From Muribaculaceae bacterium (GTDB taxonomy: Bacteria; Bacteroidota; Bacteroidia; Bacteroidales; Muribaculaceae): 39,666 bases of DNA. Below the pieces are notes generated by a model. It saw nothing but the letters and a program-made list of their open reading frames with translations, was not told the origin of the DNA and did not search any database. The DNA lies in contig JAFTDD010000016.1 in NCBI GenBank assembly GCA_017454355.1, positions 1-39,666 of the forward strand, given 5' to 3'. Shown one piece after another: positions 7,020-26,192 of the stretch (the stretch's first letter is position 1; each line of letters starts with the position of its first letter). The position numbers and the translations under genes were made by a program.

Positions 7020-7042
7020 TGTTATTCGTTAGTCGTTAGTAG
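7020..7042 (-). repeat. TTAGTCG heptamers across the folA-lpxB stop codon
   Basis: TTATTCG, TTAGTCG and TTAGTAG follow one another on the plus strand. They encode the last residues (LTTNE) and the stop of the fusion protein. Confidence 0.6.
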
Positions 7043-8725
7043 GCGGGCTGTGGTGGTGGCGCAGGAGGCGGTGGTAAGGCGTGCGGCGACGCGGGCGTAG
7101 CCGTCTAGTTGGGCACTGCGGTCGGGGCCATCGAGTAGCAGGGCGGTGAGGTGGTCGTCGATGGCGTCGACGGTGCAGTGGTGCATCAGCAGTTCGGGAA
7201 TAATGGGCTCGTCGGCGATGAGGTTTGGCAGGGTGACATACTTGCCGCTGAGCAGTTTGCTATAGAACCAGTAGGCGACGCGGCTGGCGTCCATGCGGTA
7301 GCAGGCCACCTGCGGTGTGCCGAGCAGCGCCGTCTCAAGGGTGGCGGTGCCGCTGGTGACGAGAGCCACACGGGCGTGGCGGACGAGAGTGAAAGTCAAT
7401 CCTCCTACAATAGGGACGGCCAGACCAAGGCCGGGCGCTACATTATTGAGGATGTCGCGATAGATGTCGCGGTCGACGCTCGGCGCGGCGGCGATGACGG
7501 CTTGGCAGTCGGGGTGCCTCGCGGCGGCTTGGAGCATTGACGGCAGGTTGTCGCGGATTTCTTTGAGGCGGGAGCCGGGTAAGATGGCGATGATGGGTTT
7601 GGCCGGGTCAAGACCGTGGGTGGCGCAAAACTCGTCGCGCGTGGGCATCGCGGCGACGGCCTGCTCTACCTCGGCTACAGTCGGGTTGCCAACGTAGGTG
7701 GCGCCGCCGTAGCCTTTACCGCGATAGAACTCCGGCTCAAAGGGCAGAATGCAATAAACAGCCTTGACGTAGCGCTTGATGTCCTTGACGCGCCACTGCT
7801 TCCACACCCACACTTTGGGCGAGATGAAGTAGTGGACCGGGATACCGCGGCCGGCGGCGTGTTTGGCAATCTTGAGATTGAACGACGGGTAGTCGATGAG
7901 GATGACAGCCGTGGGCTGCCAGTCGTCGATGATTTTTTTTGCGGTACGCATGAAGCCGAGGATTGCCGGCAGGTGTTTTATCACCTCGACGAAGCCCATG
8001 AAGGCCATGTCGCGGTAATGCACCTCCGGGTTTCGGCCGGCGGCGGCGGCCATCATGTCGCCTCCGAAGAAGCGCACTTGTGCCTCCGGCTGCAGCCGTC
8101 GCAGTTCGGCGATGAGGTGTGAGCCGTGGAGGTCGCCGCTTGCTTCGCCGGCAAGGATGAGGTAGCGTGGAGCCTCGCCCTGGGCGGCCAGGCCAAGGCC
8201 AGGCCCTACAATGGGAACTTTAGTTTCTTTGCGCTCGAGGGTGACAAACTCATAGTCGACGCCTTGTTCCACGTTGTTAACGGCTTGGCCTACAATCTGC
8301 CACTCGTTGGGGTCAATCTCGGGAAACCAAGTGTCGGCATCGGGAAAGGTGGCGTGAATGCGGGTGAGGTGGAGCGTGGAGGCCATTGGCAGCGCCTGAC
8401 GGTAAATCTCGCCGCCGCCGATGACCATGACCGGCGAGGGCATTGTGGCCATAGTCATGGCCTGCTCGAGGCTGTGGGCCACGCGCACTCCGTCGTAGCC
8501 GGGGTCATAGGTCTCGTTGCGAGTGACGACAATATTCTCGCGTCCGGGCAGCGGCCCCTTGGGCAGCGACTCAAAGGTGCGCCGCCCCATGACGACCGTG
8601 TGGCCCATGGTGATGGCCTTGAAACGGCGCAGGTCTTCAGGCAGGTGGCACAAAAGGGAGCCGTCACGACCGATGGCACCGTCGTCGGCTACTGCGGCTA
8701 TAATTGCTACTTCTGGTTTCATCAA
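7022..8725 (-). CDS. folA-lpxB: Dihydrofolate reductase fused to lipid-A-disaccharide synthase
   Basis: One 567-residue frame holds two whole enzymes. Residues 1-169 are dihydrofolate reductase: AIGRDGSLLCHLPEDL, VVMGRRTFESLP, ENIVVTRN, VIGGGEIYRQAL. Residues 187-567 are LpxB, which joins UDP-diacylglucosamine and lipid X in lipid A synthesis: LILAGEASGDLHGSHL, FFGGD, ISPKVWVWKQWR, YVGNPTV, LPGSRLKEI, VTSGTATLETAL. The joint (170-186) begins VPIVGPGLGLA; its DNA (TTGTAGGGCCTGGCC) matches a dispersed repeat core of this genome. No ATG, GTG or TTG lies in frame at the LpxB start, so LpxB seems to be made only as a fusion. A similar peptide (PGLGLAVPIVGG, near 431-442) lies inside LpxB where relatives are about six residues shorter. 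The last residues LTTNE come from heptamers. Confidence 0.88.
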   Translation of the reverse strand: MMKPEVAIIAAVADDGAIGRDGSLLCHLPEDLRRFKAITMGHTVVMGRRTFESLPKGPLPGRENIVVTRNETYDPGYDGVRVAHSLEQAMTMATMPSPVMVIGGGEIYRQALPMASTLHLTRIHATFPDADTWFPEIDPNEWQIVGQAVNNVEQGVDYEFVTLERKETKVPIVGPGLGLAAQGEAPRYLILAGEASGDLHGSHLIAELRRLQPEAQVRFFGGDMMAAAAGRNPEVHYRDMAFMGFVEVIKHLPAILGFMRTAKKIIDDWQPTAVILIDYPSFNLKIAKHAAGRGIPVHYFISPKVWVWKQWRVKDIKRYVKAVYCILPFEPEFYRGKGYGGATYVGNPTVAEVEQAVAAMPTRDEFCATHGLDPAKPIIAILPGSRLKEIRDNLPSMLQAAARHPDCQAVIAAAPSVDRDIYRDILNNVAPGLGLAVPIVGGLTFTLVRHARVALVTSGTATLETALLGTPQVACYRMDASRVAYWFYSKLLSGKYVTLPNLIADEPIIPELLMHHCTVDAIDDHLTALLLDGPDRSAQLDGYARVAARLTTASCATTTARLLTTNE

Positions 8726-12964: not shown

Positions 12965-13106
12965 GTTGAGAGGTTGAGCGTTGAGAGGTTGAGCCATTTG
13001 CTATCGCGAATGGGAATAAATGTAGGGTCTGGCCGTTCCGGAGACAAATCAATTATCCCCGAGCGCGATAGCGCAAGGCTCAACCCCTCAACTCTCAACC
13101 TCTAAA
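12965..13106. repeat. Mosaic palindrome (GTTGAG/CTCAAC), element 1
   Basis: Several GTTGAG units of 7-8 bases lead into an arm ending GAGCCATTTGCTATCGCGAA, then the core TGTAGGGTCTGGCCGTTCC, then an opposing arm with GAGCGCGATAGCGCAAGG and CTCAAC units. The ends are complementary, so the whole could fold into one branched structure. Related elements lie at 25993-26188 and 35113-35336. It fills the whole gap between the peroxidase and protease genes. Confidence 0.75.
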
Positions 13107-25992: not shown

Positions 25993-26188
25993 AAGAGAGG
26001 TTGAGCGTTGAGGGGTTGAGGGGTTGAGCCTCGCGCTATCGCGCTCGGGGATAATGGATTTGCTCTGGGGCGGCCAGGCCCTACATTTATCGCCGAGCGC
26101 GATAGCGCGAGGAACGGCCAGGCCCTACATTTATTCCCGAGCGCGATAGCGCGAGGCTCAACCCTCAACCCTCAACCTCTCAACCCTC
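25993..26188. repeat. Mosaic palindrome (GTTGAG/CTCAAC), element 2
   Basis: The inner arms 26021-26049 and 26136-26164 are exact 29-base reverse complements and pair on for five more bases with one G-T. They contain GCCTCGCGCTATCGCGCTCG. Outside are GTTGAG units (left) and CTCAACC units (right). Between the arms are a further copy of the right arm (26092-26112) and two copies of GGCCAGGCCCTACATTTAT. It fills the whole gap between the DUF4353 and kinase genes. Confidence 0.85.
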
Positions 26189-26192
26189 AACG

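Follow-up and report, generated by a model that had tools for sequence, protein, structure and literature searches.

The window analysed here, the whole stretch of 39,666 nucleotides, carries on its minus strand a gene in which folA and lpxB are fused into a single reading frame. Inside this gene lie two copies of a 26-bp word, TGTAGGGCCTGGCCTTGGCCTGGCCG, which we label REP-1 and read as a GTAG-type REP; halves of the same word are found between genes elsewhere in the window. We refer to the window's genome as G000 and to its nearest relative as G016. The features discussed are the following.

7022..8722, minus strand: fused folA-lpxB gene (Pfam DHFR_1 at residues 5-164, LpxB at residues 188-554)
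8185..8210, minus strand: exact full copy of REP-1 at the folA-lpxB joint, reading VGPGLGLA
7417..7442, minus strand: decayed copy of REP-1 inside the LpxB part, TGTAGCGCCCGGCCTTGGTCTGGCCG, with 3 mismatches in 26, reading VAPGLGLA and common to G016
13021..13034, plus strand: left half of REP-1 (exact 14-mer) in an intergenic inverted-repeat element
26116..26129, minus strand: left half of REP-1 (exact 14-mer) in an intergenic inverted-repeat element
26072..26085, minus strand: second left half of REP-1 (exact 14-mer), in the same intergenic element as 26116..26129

The codons of the joint copy are (T) GTA GGG CCT GGC CTT GGC CTG GCC. Only 8185-8210 and 7417-7442 come within 3 mismatches of the 26-mer in the window, and none of 100 shuffles produced such a match. 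The exact 14-mer occurs at four places (8197, 13021, 26072 and 26116). With up to 3 mismatches it is at chance level in the window (14 found against 9.83 expected, with 14 of 100 shuffles having as many), so the short core alone is insufficient to settle the site inside LpxB. The preliminary description of this DNA, which had placed a repeat core inside folA-lpxB twice, was right about coordinates and letters, and the phenomenon is larger than it claimed, with 157 copies in the genome. Its comparison with an intergenic core at 13020, 26072 and 26115 is also borne out by exact 14-mers at 13021, 26072 and 26116, where only the left half of the 26-mer is found.

These half copies sit in the middle of intergenic elements at about 12966-13105 and 25995-26190, which have GTTGAG/CTCAAC inverted ends and GCTATCGC-type stems. 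A motif test places 27 of 98 REP-1 copies in G000 within a GTTGAG-type element. A scan of the window against Rfam at gathering scores gave zero RNA-family matches.

The REP-1 family

REP-1 is a dispersed repeat family. At up to 3 mismatches there are 157 copies of the 26-mer in the 2.7 Mb of G000 and none of the reversed-pattern control. The 14-mer of the preliminary description has 100 exact copies, 50 on each strand, again with zero for the control. Among the G000 matches listed, 60 are exact over all 26 bases, and among the 14-mer matches listed REP-1 is mostly single. At up to 2 mismatches the word is present in 22 of 61 genomes of the genus. Across the order it is found in one of 119 sampled genomes, which is G000 itself.

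The word consists of GTAG and, directly after it, an imperfect palindrome. The hairpin, GGCC-T-GGC-CTTG-GCC-T-GGCC, has seven pairs and a T:T mismatch, and its first stem base lies directly 3' of GTAG. Folded as DNA it reaches -7.5 kcal/mol (z -2.4; 5 of 200 shuffles fold equally well), and its complement reaches -6.0. Compensatory variants of the stem are observed. Where both letters of a pair were left free, 33 listed of 148 G000 matches comprised 21 G/C, 10 C/G and 2 unpaired. We prefer these counts to those from 72 G000 loci (65 G/C, 5 C/G, 2 neither), which are biased because the loci were selected with a pattern demanding G; among 14 loci from other genomes the two paired forms number 9 and 5. 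The double change, TGTAGGGCCTCGCCTTGGCGTGGCC, is the C/G form, and it is the main form among the matches listed in several relatives.

Flanks were compared for 98 of the 100 copies, as two lie too close to the end of a contig. For the 71 of them that are not part of the GTTGAG element, the 26-mer alone is conserved, apart from weak preferences at -1, +26 and +32 (61-63% each). The right half of the word is absent or altered from its first bases onward in 16 of the 98 copies, including the three intergenic ones of the window.

REP-1 thus has the hallmarks of a GTAG-type REP: the GT[AG]G foot, 26 bp where such palindromes measure 20-40 bp, and a dispersed, high copy number. It is also mostly extragenic, with 27 of 100 copies judged genic by open reading frames rather than by curated annotation. 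We are confident that the core is a GTAG-type REP of a Bacteroidales genus, present in at least 157 places, mostly outside recognisable genes in the 100-copy sample and also in coding sequence.

Copies within genes

The 27 genic copies of the 14-mer set comprise 26 in open reading frames and the one at the folA-lpxB joint. Pfam matches with E up to 1e-5 were obtained for the proteins of 22 of the 27, the DUF748 match of one (L079) being slightly below the curated cut-off, and a match in G016 was found for 23 of the 26 ORF segments. L103, which has neither, is the weakest case. Cases where the GTTGAG element forms an N-terminal extension of an ORF (e.g., L021, L061, L086 and L108) are excluded from this count. 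As we interpret the Pfam matches, the host genes include an ABC-F ATPase, RibF, RecQ, MutL, PolA, a LysE-type carrier, a dihydrolipoamide-dehydrogenase-like protein and an aldo/keto reductase with a 4Fe-4S domain. In six of the 27, REP-1 lies between two Pfam domains: at the joint, in the ABC-F ATPase (L013), MutL (L081), PolA (L085), a dockerin/cohesin protein (L104) and the aldo/keto reductase with its Fe-S domain (L115).

Orthologues with and without a copy are found between the two sister species. Among 24 pairs of G000 and G016 genes, the copy is common to both, at the same place and in frame, in 11 and absent from G016 in 13; L068, L103 and L104 had no orthologue among the G016 loci compared and are outside the 24. 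Where G016 has no copy, the net length difference is divisible by 3 in 10 of the 13 pairs (18, 30, 48, 6, 60, 21, 9, 12, 42 and 6). The three others (L081, L093 and L022) were measured over a fixed stretch with gappy alignments. One copy common to both species (L078b) gave -17 in the fixed stretch, and further repeat copies adjoin it. Few pairs are clean enough to fix the ends of the insert or a target duplication. On these comparisons, REP-1 has entered genes many times. The genome-wide search and orthologue comparison that the preliminary description had proposed thus bear out its claim that a dispersed palindromic repeat has entered coding regions: the core is present in many other genes, orthologues with and without it number 11 and 13, and both copies in folA-lpxB are in frame.

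All open frames of the word except one are used. Among the 27 copies we find VGPGLGLA 9 times, RPGQGQAL 10 times, CRAWPWPG 4 times, GQAKARPY 4 times and ARPRPGPT not at all; the sixth frame has a stop. The unevenness over the five open frames (chi-square p 0.014) deserves little weight, being a post hoc test on 27 copies.

In the LysE-type carrier gene of G000 (L078:1416-2177, minus strand) more than one REP-1-like copy lies in tandem and in frame. Three of the 27 genic copies (L078, L081 and L085) are in apparent repair or replication genes (RecQ, MutL and PolA), a class highlighted by PMC3733652.

The LpxB loop and the fusion joint

The preliminary description gave LpxB as about six residues longer here than in Bacteroides relatives. 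This is accurate: compared with 28 unfused aligned relatives, in which the loop is 4-8 residues shorter, the excess is 6 residues for 22 of them, 8 for two and 4 for four, and these orthologous LpxB proteins are without the added residues. The LpxB of G016 has the same extra residues, with 6 mismatches to REP-1, two of them common to the window copy (counted by hand on the alignment). Mismatches that are partly shared in this way are expected from a single old, decayed insertion. Part of the likeness of the loop to REP-1 may nevertheless be native, as E. coli LpxB reads VAPDL--SV where the window protein reads VAPGLGLAV. PGLGLA and VPIVG are indeed encoded at both sites, as had been described. 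The likeness in VPIVG is coincidental, however, since in LpxB it is the native strand after the insert, and relatives have VPVL, VPLV, VPIV and similar at this position.

At the joint, the REP-coded residues (about 171-181) lie between the DHFR_1 and LpxB domains, and the predicted peptide across the fused joint of G000 runs through KVPIVGPGLGLAAQGEAPR. Searching 101 genomes of the genus, we found one match over both parts only in G000 and G016, whose fused proteins are 87% identical. Genomes that say nothing on fusion are G020 and G080 (no match), G069 and G087 (matches of FolA strength only) and a few with LpxB pieces only. The G016 folA-lpxB locus is also public as CAMHQD010000004.1 (uncultured Porphyromonadaceae bacterium); further loci from the same scan are in records titled Bacteroidales, Prevotellaceae or Muribaculaceae, one of them from goat rumen.

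Unfused neighbours show what separates the two genes. In 21 unfused loci, chosen with folA overlapping lpxB or within a few bases of it, the stretch from the end of FolA's last strand (ITL/VTL) to AGEASGD of LpxB measures 29, 32 or 35 nt, that is 2 mod 3, and is out of phase in all 21. G009 (L049), with folA about 100 nt upstream, is excluded from this set, and three of its members (L140, L142 and L144) are named public records that possibly duplicate G genomes. In fused G000 the same stretch is 84 nt and in phase, and in G016 it is 6 nt fewer by alignment; the fused genes are 46-52 nt longer at the joint. The G000 joint contains no ATG, GTG or TTG; that of G016 has an ATG and a TTG.

Despite the same fusion, the alignment shows no copy of REP-1 at the G016 joint. 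Instead the joint matches exactly another dispersed palindrome, here the second palindrome, CCCCTCCTTNAGGANGGGG (C4:70973-70991), which has 135 matches at up to 1 mismatch in each of G000 and G016 (palindromic copies counting twice) and zero for the control. The ATG of the G016 joint lies within this palindrome and might allow LpxB to be started anew. At four other sites (L001, L062, L072 and L079) G016 has this second palindrome at or beside the place where G000 has REP-1, exactly in three and with one mismatch in L001.

These observations argue that an insertion of repeat DNA probably made the folA-lpxB fusion, but not the present REP-1 copy alone. The suggestion of the preliminary description that the repeat created the fusion therefore survives in part: repeat DNA is the probable cause, and REP-1 by itself is not, as G016 is fused with no REP-1 at the joint. 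The simplest order of events would be that a repeat insertion joined the two frames before G000 and G016 diverged and that REP-1 entered the seam later in the G000 line. More specifically, and with a little less than even confidence, we suggest that a palindromic repeat of length 3n+1 landed in the ATGA overlap of folA stop and lpxB start, erased both and joined dihydrofolate reductase to lipid A disaccharide synthase, a different repeat later inserting into the first at the seam. Irrespective of how the fusion arose, our main reading is that REP-1 hit folA-lpxB twice, long ago in the LpxB loop, before G000 and G016 split, and then at the joint, where the copy is seen in G000 and not in G016.

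The phylogeny adds a caveat. In an LpxB tree of 35 rows the fused pair joins G119 (99/95), in which folA lies apart from lpxB on the opposite strand; because this closest relative has folA elsewhere, the ancestral overlap of the two genes is not certain. Adjacency of folA and lpxB occurs in two separate parts of the tree, on labels assigned by hand (G117 being labelled not adjacent without a check).

Two side observations concern the same locus. The palindrome at the G016 joint (G016:C4:70973-70991) is G-rich, CCCCTCCTTYAGGAGGGG; it is dispersed in G000 and G016, and other genes besides folA-lpxB also contain it in frame. The FolA part of the G016 gene (L032) carries a reversed REP-1, reading ERPGQGRALQ and adding about 14 residues, which is absent in G000.

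Alternative explanations

One could argue that both stretches in folA-lpxB are ordinary GC-rich coding sequence, rich in glycine and proline, that resembles a repeat by chance or codon usage. The chance-level behaviour of the 14-mer at 3 mismatches and the VAPDL of E. coli LpxB would fit this view. It is hard to reconcile with a 26-mer that has two matches within 3 mismatches against none in 100 shuffles and whose reversed control is zero in 2.7 Mb, and with relatives that do not have the residues and a joint copy that is exact. On the strength of the control and the shuffles we reject it as scarcely credible. A word kept for a cell function, such as a DNA uptake signal or a Chi-like site, could explain the equal strands (50 and 50), the scatter over the genome and the uneven use of frames in genes. 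DNA uptake signals are thought to originate by point mutation, yet proteins with the word gain residues over their orthologues, and substitutions in its stem are paired. There are also only 157 copies, and one genome in 119 across the order has it. We regard such a signal as very improbable and keep to the reading of REP-1 as a mobile repeat.

A different question is whether REP-1 itself fused folA and lpxB at the gene boundary, G016 having lost or overwritten the copy later. The copy does lie exactly between the two domains, in a joint without ATG, GTG or TTG. However, G016 has the fusion too, with a clean copy of the other palindrome as its joint, and at the four other sites the second palindrome seems to have come first, with REP-1 later going into or beside it. 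This makes a fusion by REP-1 unlikely. It is also conceivable that the peptides are functional additions under selection, for example flexible linkers: the common frames yield small peptides rich in glycine, proline and glutamine, and 11 of the 24 coding copies are in frame in both species. Yet 13 of the 24 are absent from G016, the peptide varies with the frame, and many unrelated genes are affected, so that we would give selection for the peptides less credence still. We favour a scenario in which in-frame, stop-free copies of a mobile repeat would survive in coding sequence with neutral or nearly neutral effects on the host proteins, and in which a dispersed repeat inserted at the overlap of folA stop and lpxB start would have fused the genes in the common ancestor of G000 and G016.

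Relation to known repeats

REPs inside genes are already published, and REP-1 is a new family of that kind, going by the accessible parts of PMC3733652 and PMC6006769. The former describes intragenic repeats of both the GTAG and the CGTC type in several species, many of the host genes serving DNA replication and repair, and considers that such repeats are possibly neutral in linkers or loops. REP-1 resembles its GTAG-type REPs in the GTAG at the foot of a palindrome of 20-40 bp and in being present in many copies, mainly intergenic with a genic minority. It is unlike them in occurring in Bacteroidales and in being mostly single among the matches listed: the accessible text of PMC3733652 assigns GTAG repeats to Proteobacteria, Cyanobacteria, Chloroflexi and the PVC group, and its single mention of Bacteroidetes concerns CGTC repeats. 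In PMC6006769, as far as its text is accessible, REPs lie in frame within subclass 2.4 tnpA-REP genes, a subclass abundant in Bacteroidetes. Those REPs are in the transposase genes themselves; the genes entered by REP-1 are unrelated household genes, and a cognate transposase was looked for without success.

The preliminary description likened the repeat to the palindromic elements of Rickettsia. The parallel is apt for the effect, palindromic repeats within many unrelated genes, but not for the anatomy. PMC3733652, in its accessible part, places the intragenic RPE-4 and RPE-6 of R. conorii among the CGTC-type REPs, whereas REP-1 has a GTAG foot rather than CGTC, and a different sequence. Palindromic repeat coding sequence is also reported for Mollicutes (PMC2996958, in part), and small mobile sequences, some intragenic, are described in the accessible part of PMC2229807. 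A search of mostly non-subscription literature for intragenic REPs or palindromes in Bacteroidetes or Muribaculaceae gave PMC3733652 and PMC6006769 as the relevant papers.

The most unusual feature of the REP-1 case is the gene fusion marked by a repeat; a literature search judged from titles and abstract openings gave no paper that mentions a folA-lpxB fusion. Among hairpin repeats that write peptide into conserved proteins, REP-1 is an additional case, from the Bacteroidales, for which sister species provide orthologous sites both occupied and empty. The folA-lpxB gene is, in addition, a concrete and testable case of a fusion in which repeat DNA forms the seam in each of the two species where the fusion was found. 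If the 3n+1 insertion reading is true, small hairpin repeats would give rise to fused genes in addition to inserted loops.

Transposases and other palindromes

In the literature, the spread of REPs is attributed to Y1 transposases. The E. coli enzymes recognise GTAG and a conserved mismatch in the stem when they bind the single strand, and their cleavage site is a CT beside the element (PMC8266576, in its accessible part). REP-1 resembles that system in its GTAG foot, stem mismatch and adjacent CT. Of the 71 copies lying outside the GTTGAG element, 19 have CT directly 5' of REP-1, where the background is 4.8% (p 7e-10). The excess was tested after reading the E. coli paper and stems partly from REP-1 copies sitting in the second palindrome (CCTCCT). 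We infer that a Y1 (TnpA-REP-like) transposase would have mobilised REP-1 as single-stranded DNA.

The search for a cognate transposase gave none. The G000 assembly, 89% complete, has 10 Y1 matches; REP-1 directly flanks none of the 8 that were examined, in seven regions, and none of the Y1 genes in six G016 regions. The nearest REP-1 to a Y1 gene is at about 0.6 kb in G016 (L158), and copies of the C/G type lie at about 1.4-1.7 kb in G025 and G000 (L165 and L150). When six of the G000 proteins were compared with NCBIfam, four scored high enough to count as IS200 transposases, but all fell short of the 80 bits demanded of REP-associated transposases, the best reaching 63.3. No correlation between copy number and Y1 count was obvious by eye over 61 genomes, and G082 has 13 copies of REP-1 and zero Y1 matches.

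Some of the Y1 genes of G000 (L149-L153 and L155) have inverted hairpins of their own on either side, which bear no relation to REP-1, and the gene in L149 has the G-rich palindrome just upstream. Finally, G000 contains a second GTAG-footed palindrome, GTAGGGGCAGAATTTATTCTGCCC, with 117 matches at up to 2 mismatches (e.g., G000:C27:15943-16003). Two inverted copies separated by about 13 bases often occur together, as in REPINs.
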